Below are positions 16,385 through 23,609 of a DNA stretch of 64,000 nucleotides, piece after piece. Source of the DNA: Natronosalvus rutilus (GTDB taxonomy: Archaea; Halobacteriota; Halobacteria; Halobacteriales; Natrialbaceae). The stretch is from positions 3,329,451-3,393,450 of the forward strand of contig NZ_CP100355.1 of NCBI RefSeq assembly GCF_024204665.1. Reading direction: 5' to 3'. Under the pieces are notes generated by a model. That model worked only from the letters and a program-made list of their open reading frames with translations. It made no database searches and was not told where the DNA came from. The first letter of the stretch is position 1, and every line of letters starts with the position of its first letter. Made by a program: the position numbers and the translations under genes.

Positions 16385-17221
16385 TCAGGGCCCCTCGTCC
16401 GCTGCCTCCGGAGCGTCCGCCGGATCGACGACCTCGCCCGTCTCGGGGTAGACGCCGACCTGGTCGCAGACGTCGGCCATCGGGCACGCTTCGGGGTCCT
16501 CGAGACACGCCGGCTTGCGCGCCATACAGAACTCCCGGCCGAACTGGATGCTGGCGGTGTGGCCGAAGCCGCACTTTTCCGCCGGCACGTCCCGCTCGAG
16601 CACCTCGCGAACCCCCTCGTGGTCGGCGTCGGCGGGGGCGATGCCGAGCCGGCGGTAGATGCGGTGGACGTGCGTGTCGACGGGGAAGACGCCGTTCCGG
16701 CCGCCCGCGAACAGGAGTACGCAGTCGGCCGTCTTCGGTCCGACGCCCGAGACCTCGAGCAGCGTCTGCCTGACCTCGGCGGGGTCGCTCTCGCGAACGA
16801 ACGCGTCGAAGGCGGCGGCCGAGCCCCAGCGCTCGAGGACCCAGTCGGCGGCGACCTGGATGACCTCGGACTTTTGATTGTACAGCCCGGCCGGCTGGAT
16901 GGTCTCCGCGAGTCTCGAGCGCTCGGCGTCGGCGAGCGCGGCGGCCAGGTCGGTCTCCGGGCCGTCGTAGCGCTCGATCAGGGCGTCGTGAGCGGGTTGG
17001 CTCGCCACGTCGCTCGTGTTCTGGCTCAGGATCGTCCGGACGAGACACTCGAAGGCGTCCTGTCCGCCGTAGGTCTTCTGCCAGTAGCGTTCGCCCAGGC
17101 GGTCGACGACGAGTTCGGCCCGCGTGTCCGCGGTCGCGGGGTCGAAGGTGGCCGCCGTACCGCCGCCGTCGGCGCCGCCGCTGATGTTCACCGCGGGTTC
17201 GGGGTCGGCCTCGTCTCCCAT
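16385..17221 (-). CDS. nth: Endonuclease III-type DNA glycosylase/AP lyase
   Basis: A 278-aa HhH-GPD glycosylase that should excise oxidised pyrimidines and nick abasic sites. Visible: the HhH LEVSGVGPKTADCVL with the catalytic Lys at 163, VDTHVHRI with the catalytic Asp at 182, and four Cys of the C-terminal [4Fe-4S] loop at about 232, 239, 246 and 252. The second Cys interval has six residues where the textbook Nth loop has two. An Ala/Gly/Asp-rich N-terminal extension of about 35 residues precedes the domain. It is divergent from the polB2 operon. Confidence 0.92.
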   Translation of the reverse strand: MGDEADPEPAVNISGGADGGGTAATFDPATADTRAELVVDRLGERYWQKTYGGQDAFECLVRTILSQNTSDVASQPAHDALIERYDGPETDLAAALADAERSRLAETIQPAGLYNQKSEVIQVAADWVLERWGSAAAFDAFVRESDPAEVRQTLLEVSGVGPKTADCVLLFAGGRNGVFPVDTHVHRIYRRLGIAPADADHEGVREVLERDVPAEKCGFGHTASIQFGREFCMARKPACLEDPEACPMADVCDQVGVYPETGEVVDPADAPEAADEGP

Positions 17222-17513
17222 GCTCGAGGGTAGCCGCTGCGGTCACAAAACGGCGCCGGAATCGGCGGTCGACGGGCGGCGGTTCGCTGAGCGTCTCGAG
17301 TTCGTCGTCGGAGCGTCGGGTCCACAGAGCGCCGTTGCGCCGTTGCGCTGGTTCGTCGACGACTACCCTCGAGTTTCGGAAGTGATTTTGGAAAGCCCGT
17401 TTCCCGCGTTAGACGCTCCGGGAACCACGATATGGGCACTTCGACAGTTATCGGAAATTTCGGAAACGACCCCCCGATGGTTATCCCGGCCGCTCTCGAC
17501 CGATCGGATAGCT
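17222..17513. other. Intergenic region between nth and the polB2 operon with TCGGAA repeats
   Basis: A lower-GC gap of 292 bases between divergent genes. TCGGAA occurs at 17376-17381, 17451-17456 and 17460-17465, the last two 9 bp apart. No gene is seen. It must hold promoters for both directions; the repeated hexamer is a candidate regulatory site. Confidence 0.4.
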
Positions 17514-18266
17514 ATGACGGTAATCACACACGATTCGACGCTCGAGCCTGGACTCACGCTGCTTCGAACGCCGTCACGACAGTCGGCCGCGGTTCACCGA
17601 CTCGTCTGTGAGTATCTGGCCGACATCCGTGCGTCTCCCGAGCGGCCGGACCGTCCGCCCGAGAAATCAGCGACCGGGGACGGCCTCCGCGGTCGAGCCT
17701 ACTGGATCGACGCCGGCAACGTCGCCTCGACCCACGCGCTCTACGAGTGCGCACCGGGCTCCGGCCGGGCGCTCGAGCGACTGCGGATCGCACGGGCGTT
17801 TACCGCCTACCAGCACCACTCGCTGGTCCAGGCGGTCGTGCGACGAGCCGACGCCGACACCCCGCTCGTGGTCGCGCCGAACGTCGCCTCGCTCTACCAG
17901 GACGGCGACCTCCGCGAGTGGGAGCGGACGGATCTGCTCGCGTCGACGCTCGCCGTCCTGGGCGAACTCGGTCGCGGCCTCGAGTGCCCTGTCGTGATCA
18001 CGTCGGGGCCGGACGTCCCCGGGGCGACCGTCGAGCGCCTCGAGGCCGCGGCGGACTCGGTCGTCGAGTGTACGCGCACCCGCGAGGGGCTGCGGTTCGA
18101 GGGGGCGGGGTTCGAAACGATGGGCTACTGGCACGGTCCCGTCTGGCAGACGACGATTCCCTACTGGGTCGACCTCTTCGGGACCGTCGATCCCGAGCGG
18201 CCGTGGGAGTCCAGGACGAGGACGAGTCACCCGTCGATCGACCCGCTCGAGGGGGTGCTCGCCTGA
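17514..18266 (+). CDS. RecA/RadA-like protein of the polB2 operon, without a P-loop
   Basis: A 250-aa protein resembling the core of RadA paralogs: AYWIDAGNVASTHALYE, then LRIARAFTAYQHHSLVQAVV and PLVVAPNVASLYQDGDL, then CPVVITSGPD. The place where a Walker A GxxxxGK[ST] should lie reads LLRTPSRQSAAVHRLV, so ATP binding is probably lost. Its stop overlaps the ATG of the next gene (TGATG), and the whole forms a tight three-gene unit with polB2. A RecA-like gene linked to inactivated archaeal PolB2 is known from comparative genomics; here it likely assists the polymerase in damage tolerance. The start at 17514 is the first ATG before the conserved part. Confidence 0.8.
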   Translation: MTVITHDSTLEPGLTLLRTPSRQSAAVHRLVCEYLADIRASPERPDRPPEKSATGDGLRGRAYWIDAGNVASTHALYECAPGSGRALERLRIARAFTAYQHHSLVQAVVRRADADTPLVVAPNVASLYQDGDLREWERTDLLASTLAVLGELGRGLECPVVITSGPDVPGATVERLEAAADSVVECTRTREGLRFEGAGFETMGYWHGPVWQTTIPYWVDLFGTVDPERPWESRTRTSHPSIDPLEGVLA

Positions 18267-18625
18267 TGGGGCGAACCAACCCCACCTATCGCGACGCGCT
18301 CCGGCGGCTGGAGGCGGACTGGAAACCGATGCGGCGCGCGTTGCGCCGGGAGCGCCAGGCCGACTTCGATCGGCTCTTCGAGCGGGCGCGGAACGTGGCC
18401 GACGCGGCGGGGTACGCGAACCCGACGGATCCGGAGCAGGCGCTGGTGCTGTCGCTGCTGGTGGCCCACGAGACGGCAATCCGGCGGCTCGAGGCGCGGG
18501 TGGTGACGCTCGAGTCGGCGCTGGATGCGCTCGAAGCCGAGGTTGACAGCGACATCGTCATCGGCACCGACACCGACACCGACGCCGAATCGAGAGCCGG
18601 CACCGGAGAGGGCGACCGGCCGTGA
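18266..18625 (+). CDS. Small helical protein of the polB2 operon
   Basis: A 119-aa protein: MGRTNPTYRDALRRLEADW, then basic helices (RRALRRERQADFDRLFERARN), ANPTDPEQALVLSLLVAHETAIRRLEARV, a coiled-coil-like stretch and an acidic tail. I do not recognise a named family. Small proteins between the RecA-like and PolB2 genes are part of the conserved archaeal cassette. It overlaps both neighbours (TGATG upstream, GTGA downstream), so equimolar translation and a physical complex are plausible. Confidence 0.75.
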   Translation: MGRTNPTYRDALRRLEADWKPMRRALRRERQADFDRLFERARNVADAAGYANPTDPEQALVLSLLVAHETAIRRLEARVVTLESALDALEAEVDSDIVIGTDTDTDAESRAGTGEGDRP

Positions 18626-20922
18626 CCTTCACCCTCGAGTTCGAGGGCGACCTCGTCAGGGAGTGGACGCTCAAGGGCGAGGATAGCGATTCGGACGACG
18701 AGAACCGCCCGGGGGCGACCTTCGAGGAACGTACCGACTACGTTCCCGCGCTGTTCGTCGACGGCCCGCTCGAGGCGCTCGAGGACGTCGGAGACGCCCT
18801 CGCGTCCGATCCCAAAGTGTGCGAGACGACGTTCGAGGATCGGTACCCAAGTCTGCACGCCCACCACGCCGACGACACCTCGAGAATGCTCCGCGTCGGC
18901 CTCGAGCGCGTCGACGAGGTTCGGACGCTGGCCGCAGAAATTCGAGGCGTCTACGGTCGCGAGCACCACGCCCCCGGGACGCTCCGCCTGTTCGACGTCG
19001 ATCTCACGCCCGGCTTTCGGTACTGCCTCGACGAGGGAGTCGATCTCGCGCCGAGCCGCCCCCTCCGGACCCTCGAGATTGGGATCGACGACCGGGCGCT
19101 CGCGGCGGGCGACTTCTCGAGCCTCGAGATCGACGGCGAGTCGGTGACGGGCGATCCGGCGGACGTCCTCTGGTCGCTCGGACGGCGACTCGAGCGCCGC
19201 AACCCCGACGTACTCGTGGTGAGCCACGGCGACCTCGTACCGACCGTCGAGCGAGCGGCGGCCGACGCGGGCCTCGAGGGCGTCCACCTCGGTCGGCTCC
19301 CCGGCTGGACGAAGCTGGCAGGCGAGAGCACGTACGCGAGTTACGGGCAGGTCGGCCACTCCCCGGCGCGCTACCGGGTTCCGGGCCGGGCGATCGTCGA
19401 CCGATCGAACAGCTTTCTGTGGCACCAGTCCGGACTCGCCGGCCTCGAGTACCTGGTCCAGCGGTCGAGAAAACCCCTCCAGGAAGCTGCCTGGGCGAGT
19501 ATCGGGTCAGTGCTGACGGCGATCCAGATCCGCGAGGCGCGAGCGTGGGACGTCCCGGCCCCGCTCAACAAGTGGGAGCCCGAGGCGTTCAAGGAGGTCT
19601 CGACGCTCCACGCGGCCGACCGCGGCGGGTTCACGTTCGCTCCCGAGGTCGGCCTCCACGAGGACGTCCACGAACTCGACTTCGCGTCGCTGTACCCGCG
19701 GATCATCTGCCGACACAACGTGAGTCCGGAGACCGTCGGCTGCGACGGCGCCTGCCGGGACGTCCGTCCGACCCTCGGAACTGGCCGCGAAGACGAGGAG
19801 GTTCCCGACCTCGAGTACGACGTCTGCGGGACCGACGGCTTCCTCCCGGCGGTGTTGCGTCCCCTGCTCGACCGTCGGGCGGCCTGCAAGCGTCGACTGC
19901 GCGACGGCCCAGGCGAGGACGAGGCCGCTCGGTTGCGAGCCGAGTCCGGCGCGATCAAGTGGGTGCTCGTCTCCTGTTTCGGCTACCAGGGCTACCGCAA
20001 CGCGAAGTTCGGGCGCATCGAGTGCCACGAAGCGATCAACGCACACGCCCGCGAGATCGCCCTCCGGGCCAAAGAACGCCTCGAAGACGCCGGTTGGCGG
20101 ATCGTCCACGGCATCGTCGACAGCCTCTGGGTTACGCCGCGAGTCGACGAGCCCGATCCGCTCGAGGACGTAATCGCCGAGATCAGCCGCGACGTCGGCA
20201 TCGACATCGAGCACGACGGACGCTACGAGTGGGTGTGTTTCGTGCCGTTGCGGGGGTCCAGCGGCGGCGACCACGAGCGCGGAAGCGAAAGCGAAAGTGG
20301 TTCAGGAACCACGATCGGTGCTGGCGCCGGCGCCCTCACGAAATACGTCGGCAAACGGACGACCGGCGAGTTCAAAGTCCGCGGCCTCGAGTGCCGGCAG
20401 CGCCACACGCCGGCGTTCGTGGCCGACTGCCAGCGCGAGTTTCTCGAGGTACTCGACGAGACCCGCGACCCAGCCGCCGTCTGTGACCACCTCGCCCGTC
20501 GGCTGGGCGACCTCCGTCGCGGCGCGGTCGACCGCGACGACCTGGTGATCGCGAAACGCGTCTCGAGACGGCTCGAGGCGTACAGCCAGGAGACGCACGT
20601 CGTGGGGGCGTTGCGCCGGTACGAACGCCACGACGTCCCCCGTCGGCCGGGGCAGGCCGTCGAGTACGTCGTCGTCGACGACAGTGCGACGCGAACCGAG
20701 GAGCGCGTACGCCTCGCCTTCGAGAATGCGGATACACGCCGTGAGCGTGCAGTAGCGGACTCCACCGGGGAGGAGCGATACGGATACGACGTCGACTACT
20801 ACGTGACCCTGCTGATCCGCGCGGCCGAGAGCGTCACCGGCGCCCTGGGCTGGGATCGATCGCGGATCCGGCGCGCCCTCGAGGACGAGCGGACGGTTTC
20901 GCTGTCGGTATTTTCCCGATGA
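18622..20922 (+). CDS. polB2: Family B DNA polymerase PolB2 with altered motif C
   Basis: A 766-aa protein. Motif A is retained (ELDFASLYPRII, 351-362), and a motif B equivalent is present (AIKWVLVSCFGYQGY, 444-458). Motif C, normally YGDTDS, reads HGIVDS (496-501), so the first catalytic Asp is replaced by Ile. The exonuclease region (about 145-290) lacks recognisable ExoI-III acids. This matches the archaeal PolB2 family described as inactivated; some archaeal PolB2 proteins have been reported to retain translesion activity, so complete inactivity is not certain. A GTG start overlaps the previous stop. Ser/Glu/Gly low complexity occurs at about 545-570. Confidence 0.9.
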   Translation: MTFTLEFEGDLVREWTLKGEDSDSDDENRPGATFEERTDYVPALFVDGPLEALEDVGDALASDPKVCETTFEDRYPSLHAHHADDTSRMLRVGLERVDEVRTLAAEIRGVYGREHHAPGTLRLFDVDLTPGFRYCLDEGVDLAPSRPLRTLEIGIDDRALAAGDFSSLEIDGESVTGDPADVLWSLGRRLERRNPDVLVVSHGDLVPTVERAAADAGLEGVHLGRLPGWTKLAGESTYASYGQVGHSPARYRVPGRAIVDRSNSFLWHQSGLAGLEYLVQRSRKPLQEAAWASIGSVLTAIQIREARAWDVPAPLNKWEPEAFKEVSTLHAADRGGFTFAPEVGLHEDVHELDFASLYPRIICRHNVSPETVGCDGACRDVRPTLGTGREDEEVPDLEYDVCGTDGFLPAVLRPLLDRRAACKRRLRDGPGEDEAARLRAESGAIKWVLVSCFGYQGYRNAKFGRIECHEAINAHAREIALRAKERLEDAGWRIVHGIVDSLWVTPRVDEPDPLEDVIAEISRDVGIDIEHDGRYEWVCFVPLRGSSGGDHERGSESESGSGTTIGAGAGALTKYVGKRTTGEFKVRGLECRQRHTPAFVADCQREFLEVLDETRDPAAVCDHLARRLGDLRRGAVDRDDLVIAKRVSRRLEAYSQETHVVGALRRYERHDVPRRPGQAVEYVVVDDSATRTEERVRLAFENADTRRERAVADSTGEERYGYDVDYYVTLLIRAAESVTGALGWDRSRIRRALEDERTVSLSVFSR

Positions 20923-20985: not shown

Positions 20986-21398
20986 ATGGCGAGCAGGGAT
21001 CAGGCATCCGGCGACCGGTGCGCTCACCTGGGTCAACGGGAGACCGTCCCTGAATTGGGGGTGATGACCAGAGAGCGTGGCGCGGTAGTGACGGTCGCGT
21101 CGCTGCCGGCAGTCGCACCACTGCCGACGGTCGCCAGTGACGAACGTCGGCCGCGGCGCCTCCTGACGAACCCGATCGACACCGCGATCACGAACGTCGA
21201 AACCGACACACCGAGAATTCACAGTGACGCGACGCGGAACGGAATGCGTGGACCCTCTCGGTGAGCGATACCGGGACCGAGACGACGCTCGAGACGGGAT
21301 CGACGGTCCAGTTCACGCTCCCGGCCGCCGACCACGACGAACGGAAGCGGGACCACGAGAACGACGATACACACGAGGACACTACTCATGCACTCTGA
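20986..21398 (+). pseudogene. Decayed sensor histidine kinase
   Basis: Fragments of a histidine kinase catalytic domain remain. From about 21064 comes ERGAVVTVASLPAV, then LPTVASDERR and RLLTNPIDTAI with PRIHSDATRNG, corresponding to the segment before the N box and the N box itself (normally LLxNLIDNAI). After a frame change AWTLSVSDTG corresponds to the G1 box, and then only ETGSTVQFTLPAADH, the end of the G2 region, survives. The stretch between G1 and G2 and all sensor domains are gone. It ends at a TGA at 21396-21398, overlapping the response regulator start as an intact kinase would. Confidence 0.75.
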
Positions 21399-21831
21399 CC
21401 CGATCGACATACTGCTCGTCGAGGACAACCCCGGCGACGTCCGACTCACCAAAGAAGCGTTCAAGGAGGGGCGAATCGATAACACGATTCACGTCGCCCG
21501 CAACGGCGTCGACGCGCTGTCGTTCCTCTACCGGCGAGAGGGCTACGAGGACGCCCCCCGTCCCGATCTGATCCTGCTCGATCTGAATCTGCCCCGAAAG
21601 AACGGCGAAGAGGTACTCGAGGAACTCAAGGACGACCCCACGCTCAGGCGCATTCCCACGGTCGTCCTGACGAGTTCCGAGGCCGAAGAGGACGTGGTCA
21701 GGTCCTACGAGAAGTACGCGAACGCCTACCTCACGAAACCGATCGACCCGGACGAGTTCATCGAGATCGTCCGGTCGTTCGAGAGCTTCTGGCTGTCGGT
21801 CGTCAATCTACCGCCAGCGGAGGAACAATGA
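21388..21831 (+). CDS. Response regulator receiver protein
   Basis: A 147-aa stand-alone CheY-like receiver: ILLVEDNPGDVRL (acidic pocket), phospho-acceptor in PDLILLDLNLPR, Thr in VVLTSS, Lys in YLTKPIDPDEF. Haloarchaeal members of this type are the partners of multi-PAS kinases. The adjoining kinase is decayed, so phosphorylation would have to come from another kinase. It overlaps the next gene by ATGA. Confidence 0.92.
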   Translation: MHSDPIDILLVEDNPGDVRLTKEAFKEGRIDNTIHVARNGVDALSFLYRREGYEDAPRPDLILLDLNLPRKNGEEVLEELKDDPTLRRIPTVVLTSSEAEEDVVRSYEKYANAYLTKPIDPDEFIEIVRSFESFWLSVVNLPPAEEQ

Positions 21832-23609
21832 GCGGGGACGGCCCTCTCGAAATTCTGCTCATCGAGGACAATCCGGGTGACGCCCGTCTCATCGAGGAGA
21901 TGCTCTCGGGCGTCGAGGAGTTGAACCGTCGACTCGGATCGGACCCCTCGAGCGGCGAGACACCGGTCGTTCACCACGAGACGCGACTCGAGGACGGCCT
22001 CGCGTACCTCGACTCCTCCGACGCCGACGCCACGTCGTCGACCGACGGGAACGGTTCCGGGGCTACGCTGCCGACCGGCTCTGCGTCCGCATCCGGGTCC
22101 GAGTCCGAGTCCGCATCCGCGTCGGCCACCCCGATCAACGTCGTCCTCCTCGACCTGAACCTCCCCGACAGCGCCGGACTCGAGACGCTGACGGCGGTTC
22201 TCGAGAGCGACGCGACGGCCCCGGTCATCGTCCTGACCGGACTGCAAGACAGCGACGCGGGGATCGAAGCCATCTCGCGAGGTGCCCAGGAGTACCTCGT
22301 GAAAGACGAGGTAACCAGCCCGATGCTCGTCCGGACGATTGCCCACGCCATCAAACGCCACGAGCAACTCATCGAGCGCGAGCGCCGACGCGAGGAACTC
22401 GAGGCGCTCAACCGACTCAACCGGATCGGCCAGGAGATTACCCGCGACGCGATCACGACCAGCAGCCGCGAGGCGCTCGAGCAGGCGGTCTGCGATCGAC
22501 TCGCCGCCGACGACGCCTACCGATTCGTCTGGATCGGCGACGTCACCCCCGGCGGCCCCCAGGTCGTTCCCAGGGCAGCCGCCGGTGTCGAAGACGGGTA
22601 CCTGGACGAGATTACGATCACCGACGGCGACGGCGAACACAGCAGCGGGCCGACCGCCCTGGCACTCGAGACGGAGGAGATTCAGGTCGTTCGAGACATC
22701 GAGCACGACTCGACCTACGATCCCTGGCGAGAGTCGGCACGAGAGCGCTCGTTCCGATCGTCGGCGGCGATCCCGATCCTCCACGACAAAGTCCGCTACG
22801 GCATCCTGAACGTGTACTCGTCCCGCCCACACGCGTTTACCGAGTACGAGCAGACGCTTCTGGGTCGGCTCGGCGACGTCATCGGGCACGCCATCGCGGC
22901 GCTCGAGCGAAAGGACGCGCTCCTCTCGGATGCCGTCCTCGAGCTCGAGTTCCGGGTCGAGGGCGCGATCGGACCGCTCGTCGAGGCGACGGCCAGGGAG
23001 TCGGCCAAGGTCTCGATCGAGCAGTTCATCCGATCCGGCGACCGCATTCTGGCGTACGGCTCCGCCGAGGGAATCGCCCACGAGGAGCTGGGTTCGGCGA
23101 TCGACCGCACGGACGACCTGGAGGAGTTTCGCGTCCTCACACCCGGGCGAAACGAGTACGACTTCGAACTCACGAAGACGGGCAACATCGAGCTGTTCGA
23201 GACGGTCGCGTCCCGGGGCGGCCGCGTCAAGTCCGCCCGAATCGACGACGGCACGTTTCGGCTGGTCATCGAACTCTCCCAGCAGAGCGAGACGGCGCGA
23301 GTCATCGAGACCGTCGAGTCGATCTGCCCGGGGGCGACCTACGCCGCTCAGCGGACGGCCGACCGCTCGAGTCCGTCGATTCCCAGCCCGGGCCTGCTCG
23401 AGACAAAGCTAACCGACCGACAGTACGAGGCCCTCGAGACGGCCTACCTGTCGGGCTTTTTCGAGTGGCCGCGAACGAGCACGGGCGAGGAGGTCGCCGA
23501 GCGCCTCGACATCTCGCCGGCGACGTTCACCCAGCACCTGCGAGCGGCCGAGCAGAAGTTCTTCGATTCGGTGTTTTCGGCGTCCGAAGCAACCAGGGAC
23601 GGCGAGTAG
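21828..23609 (+). CDS. Receiver-GAF-Bat-HTH10 transcriptional regulator
   Basis: A 593-aa bacterio-opsin-activator-type regulator. In order: a receiver domain (LLIEDNPGDARLIEEM; acceptor in VVLLDLNLPDS) interrupted by a Ser/Ala/Thr-rich insert at about 60-100, a coiled coil (about 175-200), a GAF domain (about 200-355), the Bat sensory region (about 365-510) and a C-terminal HTH_10 (LTDRQYEALETAYLSGFFEWP, AERLDISPATFTQHLRAAEQKF). It binds DNA and activates or represses unknown targets. It is translationally coupled to the preceding receiver protein. Confidence 0.92.
   Translation: MSGDGPLEILLIEDNPGDARLIEEMLSGVEELNRRLGSDPSSGETPVVHHETRLEDGLAYLDSSDADATSSTDGNGSGATLPTGSASASGSESESASASATPINVVLLDLNLPDSAGLETLTAVLESDATAPVIVLTGLQDSDAGIEAISRGAQEYLVKDEVTSPMLVRTIAHAIKRHEQLIERERRREELEALNRLNRIGQEITRDAITTSSREALEQAVCDRLAADDAYRFVWIGDVTPGGPQVVPRAAAGVEDGYLDEITITDGDGEHSSGPTALALETEEIQVVRDIEHDSTYDPWRESARERSFRSSAAIPILHDKVRYGILNVYSSRPHAFTEYEQTLLGRLGDVIGHAIAALERKDALLSDAVLELEFRVEGAIGPLVEATARESAKVSIEQFIRSGDRILAYGSAEGIAHEELGSAIDRTDDLEEFRVLTPGRNEYDFELTKTGNIELFETVASRGGRVKSARIDDGTFRLVIELSQQSETARVIETVESICPGATYAAQRTADRSSPSIPSPGLLETKLTDRQYEALETAYLSGFFEWPRTSTGEEVAERLDISPATFTQHLRAAEQKFFDSVFSASEATRDGE

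Follow-up and report, generated by a model that had tools for sequence, protein, structure and literature searches.

The closest described counterparts of the locus studied here are the Dpo2 proteins of Sulfolobus islandicus and S. solfataricus, which are robust DNA polymerases without exonuclease activity that extend mismatches and lesion-paired primer ends (PMC8764526). In the PolB2 family, the YxDTD form of motif C is replaced by HxxxD as the norm, and the second Asp of the motif serves as the metal ligand (Feng et al., PMC8764526). Sulfolobus Dpo2, with the same HxxxD substitution, is as active as the replicase, and mutagenesis induced by damage in Sulfolobus is due solely to polB2, a damage-inducible gene (PMC8764526). 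A heteropentamer of PolB2, PPB2 and iRadA has been modelled, and the D(K/R) loop of PolB2 is predicted to contact the N-terminal arm of PPB2 (PMC11791011). Induction of Dpo2 in Saccharolobus islandicus depends on Orc1-2, a protein that also binds its own promoter (PMC9738581); the neighbourhood association of polB2 with orc1/cdc6 genes is already known as well (PMC4104785, PMC11791011). Haloferax volcanii PolB2 continues to be listed as predicted inactive, and deletion of its gene is tolerated (PMC7776575). No demonstration of activity for a haloarchaeal PolB2 was found in the literature searched.

The window analyzed here is a 64-kb stretch of the Natronosalvus rutilus genome (genome G000 of our sample, contig 1, positions 3329451-3393450). 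Its PolB2 locus is an ordinary, intact haloarchaeal copy of the PolB2 mutasome, as the latter is described in PMC11791011. Like the published complex, it displays the gene order iRadA-PPB2-PolB2, a PPB2 arm of the MGRT type with Arg3 and Arg9, a D(K/R) loop and an ATPase-dead RadA. No structural difference was found; the promoter element described below and its sharing with orc1/cdc6 genes do not appear in the accessible portion of that report. An earlier note on this DNA had proposed a three-gene machine for damage tolerance, a proposal that is probable but not new, since such a machine has been reported before under the name PolB2 mutasome (PMC11791011). The operon is a well-kept copy of a known machine, and the added value of the present analysis lies in a candidate regulatory element.

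Like the Dpo2 proteins of S. islandicus and S. solfataricus, the polymerase belongs to family B, has no exonuclease motifs, carries an HxxxD motif C and is encoded in an operon with PPB2 and iRadA. Unlike Sulfolobus Dpo2, which is described as the smallest known, the haloarchaeal PolB2 is longer (766 aa), and its motif C reads HGIVDS. A functional analogy can be drawn with E. coli Pol V (UmuC-UmuD'2-RecA), which also combines a bypass polymerase, a small oligomeric partner and a RecA-fold subunit. The locus is not a member of that system, in which the polymerase is of the Y-family, RecA is active and the small subunit is unrelated.

Organization of the operon

The features of the locus are collected in Table 1. 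The three genes overlap, as the earlier note had described: iRadA and PPB2 share 1 nt (TGATG), PPB2 and PolB2 share 4 nt (GTGA), and this arrangement suggests that they probably form one operon. Homologues were gathered from a genome sample of the order, in which 117 of 195 genomes gave a match, and from a scan of named genomes (80 loci). In the usual layout, the genes follow the order iRadA-PPB2-PolB2 and either overlap or are separated by very few nucleotides (94 complete haloarchaeal operons); since about 100 haloarchaeal loci show this gene order and the motif, the features of the present locus are not due to chance. A single PPB2 match of note occurs in the window genome, which therefore has one copy of the operon, and no further iRadA or PPB2 copies of note were detected in this genome. 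Pairwise dN/dS values against three relatives, which are rough because the synonymous distances are large, amount to 0.24-0.39 for polB2, 0.29-0.50 for PPB2 and 0.35-0.57 for iRadA and indicate purifying selection. A decaying pseudogene is ruled out by the open frames and by dN/dS values of 0.24-0.57.

Table 1. Positions in the window of the operon, its promoter region, sequence motifs and neighbouring genes
Feature	Position	Strand	Details
Endonuclease III-like gene	16385-17221	-	divergent; HhH-GPD, EndIII iron-sulfur motif
Second, degenerate half-site pair	17374-17394	+	TTTCGGAAG / TTTTGGAAA; one-mismatch matches, farther upstream
Operon promoter region	17449-17490	+	tandem TCGGAAATTTCGGAA (17451-17465), then weak TATA-like GGTTATCC
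iRadA ORF	17514-18266	+	ATG start; 250 aa
PPB2 ORF (arCOG07300-type)	18266-18625	+	ATG start; 119 aa; N-terminal MGRTNPTYR
PolB2 DNA polymerase ORF	18622-20922	+	GTG start; 766 aa
D(K/R) loop motif, D333-R334	19618-19623	+	before motif A; invariant in 101/101 homologues
Motif A, DFASLYP	19678-19698	+	catalytic D353, invariant in 101/101 homologues
Cysteine group (residues 374-402)	19741-19827		C-x-C-H...C-like; between motif A and fingers
Motif C, HGIVDS (496-501)	20107-20124	+	catalytic D500, invariant in 101/101; H496 in 100/101
C-terminal tail, ERTVSLSVFSR	20887-20919	+	possible degenerate PCNA-binding (PIP-like) tail
Response regulator and bat-type regulator genes	21388-23609		downstream of PolB2

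The PolB2 polymerase

The PolB2 ORF matches Pfam DNA_pol_B and, with 802.7 bits against a cut-off of 692, NCBIfam NF004418, a model named for type B DNA-directed DNA polymerases and not for PolB2. The best Foldseek matches of its AlphaFold model (single chain, mean pLDDT 85.2) are archaeal family-B polymerases, with E about 5e-35. The assignment to PolB2 made in the earlier note is upheld by the HxxxD motif C, the loss of the exonuclease and the D(K/R) loop. Its reading of the individual motifs also proved correct: motif A is intact and contains D353; HGIVDS occupies the place of motif C, which in the replicative PolB of the same genome (L001) reads YGDTDS; and the Exo I (FDIE), Exo II (NFDDFD) and Exo III (YNLRD) residues of that replicative PolB are not kept in PolB2, in an alignment that is weak over the N-terminal half.

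The same note had regarded the catalytic motif as altered. The HGIVDS sequence is real but not peculiar to this protein, as 96 of the 101 aligned haloarchaeal homologues are identical in this motif, the others having HAIVDS (two), HGLVDS, HGVVDS or QAIVDS. Only the first Asp of YxDTD, which is not a metal ligand, has been replaced, and both D353 and D500 are kept; the catalytic pair is therefore complete and in place, with no displacement of either residue. Lys446 and Tyr455 of motif B, together with Y575, are likewise invariant in the PolB2 homologues. The AlphaFold model places motif C in a hairpin of strand-turn-strand form (492-498 / 501-506), as expected for this motif. The possibility that the first Asp of motif C has been displaced was considered and rejected: no homologue restores this residue, and PMC11791011 gives the Asp of the D(K/R) loop another role. 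The rare forms QAIVDS and HAIVDS (L016, L017 and L019, in Halobacterium-type genomes) provide a naturally occurring test of what the His and Gly residues do.

Two further segments of the protein were observed. The segment that separates motif A from the fingers contains the cysteine group with C374 and C402, which are invariant in PolB2 homologues, and the PolBs of hyperthermophiles also have cysteines there. At the C terminus, an L-x-x-[FYW] pattern occurs within the last 16 residues in 94 of the 101 homologues, and this tail, whose putative PCNA-binding function would be degenerate here, aligns with the PolB3 tail QTQTGLDSFM.

The partner proteins PPB2 and iRadA

At the N terminus of PPB2, all 94 complete operons encode [MVL]GRT (MGRT in 82, VGRT in eight and LGRT in four), and residues M1, G2, R3, T4, N5, T7 and R9 are invariant among 32 aligned sequences. 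This signature, with its MGRT start and Arg9, matches that given in PMC11791011.

The product of the first gene gave only a sub-threshold match to RadB in sequence searches. Its AlphaFold model (pLDDT 85.9) retrieved RadA, Rad51 and DMC1 ATPase domains as all of its best Foldseek matches, with E about 2e-10, and its profile could be aligned with RadA and RadB of the same genome over 119 columns. Walker A (GxxxxGKT) is absent from the protein and from 39 aligned homologues. The 250-residue protein thus displays a RadA/Rad51 fold without the N-terminal domain or ATPase motifs, and the combination of this fold with the missing Walker A identifies the first gene as iRadA. The linkage of a RecA-like gene to PolB2, claimed earlier, is correct. 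The genome also encodes normal RadA and RadB proteins.

A promoter element shared with Orc1/Cdc6 genes in related genomes

The promoter region of the operon contains a tandem of the form TCGGAA-n(2-3)-TCGGAA, which we took as the strict definition of the element. The tandem is the sole strict match in the 64-kb window, where 0.06 would be expected. In most Natrialbaceae PolB2 operons the tandem lies at about -59 and a CTTAT box at about -30 relative to the start codon; in the window operon it lies at -63. The second half-site pair farther upstream is also visible in several relatives. Strict tandems were found in 22 of 93 haloarchaeal iRadA upstream regions, versus a mean of 0.035 in shuffles. 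No prior description of the element was found in a limited literature search, and the Halobacterium UV motif TTTCACTTTCA (PMC2556686) differs from it in sequence.

Across the family, the strict tandem occurs 118 times in 41 genomes. The motif read backward gave 0 matches, but this control is without CpG and so is not composition-matched. Of the 118 tandems, 22 precede an Orc1/Cdc6-family gene at a distance of 20-110 bp, where about 0.002 would be expected, and seven lie upstream of a PolB2 operon; the remaining 89 are unassigned, and many of them are probably chance occurrences. A genome-wide TCGGAA regulon in the window genome was considered and rejected, as the genome has three strict sites only and the other two look unrelated.

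Behind many of the inspected tandems, Pfam Cdc6_lid identified an Orc1/Cdc6-family AAA+ gene (loci with the tandem include the window, L170-L190 and L154-L156). Most of the orc genes nearest to the query (at least 72% identity, plus a group at 55%) possess the element, and most of the sampled, more distant Orc paralogues are without it, with exceptions in G189:C1, G106:C1 and G213:C4. In the sample, a close PolB2 (at least 60% identity) is always accompanied by a close Orc gene (11 of 11 genomes), whereas seven of the other 30 genomes have that gene (Fisher p = 1e-5, without correction for relatedness). In several genomes the Orc gene and the element occur in the absence of PolB2, so that a regulator acting through the element would have other roles. 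The orthologous Orc1/Cdc6 gene of the window genome (G000:C1:2311-3309) has no tandem upstream, although the element is present before iRadA in the same genome, and the orthologue of the genus-mate G094 is also without one. The window itself contains no orc1/cdc6 gene, as none of the eight Cdc6_C matches of the genome falls there.

Proposed function and regulation

We consider it highly probable that the locus is a mutasome operon in which PolB2 is an active extender without exonuclease and PPB2 and iRadA are structural subunits. D353 of motif A and D500, the second Asp of motif C, would hold the catalytic metals, and PolB2 would specialize in extension from mispaired or lesion-paired primer ends once a different polymerase has placed a nucleotide opposite the damage. 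A single Y-family polymerase gene, of the DinB type, is present in the genome and could serve in the insertion step. PPB2, probably as a trimer, and the ATPase-dead iRadA would hold PolB2 on damaged primer-template DNA, with the MGRT arm of PPB2 predicted to sit against the DR loop of PolB2 and iRadA. Because the Sulfolobus and haloarchaeal proteins are distant, polymerase activity and the extender role are argued for the latter by analogy, and complex formation and damage induction are likewise extrapolated from the relatives.

In the original proposal for the family, which early comparative work termed inactivated (PMC4104785), PolB2 would have no catalytic activity and would be retained as a scaffold or regulator that binds primer ends. 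Replacement of the Tyr and the first Asp of YxDTD and disappearance of the exonuclease residues would agree with such a protein, but a scaffold need not keep both catalytic Asp residues, Lys446, Tyr455 and Y575 invariant, and Sulfolobus relatives with the same substitution match the replicase in activity (PMC8764526); this reading is therefore improbable here. The conserved catalytic pair speaks against the "predicted inactive" label still attached to haloarchaeal PolB2. We regard as very improbable a complex that acts mainly in replication restart or alternative initiation rather than in lesion bypass. Such a role was suggested earlier from the association with RadA-like and Orc1/Cdc6 genes (PMC4104785), and the sharing of the promoter element of the PolB2 operon with Orc1/Cdc6 genes points in the same direction, but the Sulfolobus gene responds to damage and alone accounts for damage-induced mutagenesis (PMC8764526), and the Orc1-2 paralogue of Sulfolobus is a transcription regulator and not an initiator (PMC9738581).

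The shared element itself can be read in two ways. It is plausible, if somewhat short of probable, that in haloarchaea (Natrialbaceae, perhaps wider) an Orc1/Cdc6-family protein is a DNA-damage regulator of the PolB2 mutasome, acting via the TCGGAA tandem at its own promoter and that of iRadA. Such a regulator would switch the operon through the tandem, a step more tentative than the rest of our explanation. As in the Orc1-2 regulon of Saccharolobus islandicus (PMC9738581), an Orc1/Cdc6-family gene and the polB2 operon have a common promoter element; unlike that regulon, the haloarchaeal site is a TCGGAA tandem rather than an ANTTTC hexamer, and the regulator is a candidate. A shared, position-fixed element would thus fit the Orc1-2 logic with another DNA site. 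The link is weakest in the genus of the window genome, because the orc orthologue there is without the tandem. That the tandem is not a regulator site but a promoter duplicated locally, which has travelled with orc and polB2 genes lying next to each other, seems doubtful: one promoter could have copied the other where orc and iRadA are adjacent (G128, G106, G213 and G208, the first three with one element at each gene), but both genes also have the element where they are unlinked, on different contigs in G140 and about 2 Mb apart in G087, and the element has been kept while its intergenic surroundings diverged. The TCGGAA tandem and the Orc1/Cdc6 paralogue together represent a concrete, testable candidate for a haloarchaeal damage-response regulator.

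Neighbouring genes and additional PolB2 loci

The endonuclease III-like gene adjoining the operon was considered as a part of the system and rejected, since it is not conserved beside the operons of relatives. Nine of 80 haloarchaeal PolB2 loci (L092:2246-2899; also L046, L065, L066, L079, L086, L089, L097 and L103) have, within the operon or next to it, a stand-alone gene for an exonuclease-like protein (Pfam RNase_H_2, FDIETTGF...GGFDLPFLR). This gene could possibly provide proofreading in trans for the exonuclease-less PolB2; the window genome has no match to it. The pair of genes downstream of PolB2 codes for a response regulator and a bat-type GAF/HTH_10 regulator, and 11 Natrialbaceae loci have kept this pair close to the operon. 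As many as five PolB2 matches per genome occur in the haloarchaea G102, G108, G156, G166, G171, G190 and G194, and many copies of a more distant PolB2 group (about 50% identity) are located on small contigs or named plasmids.
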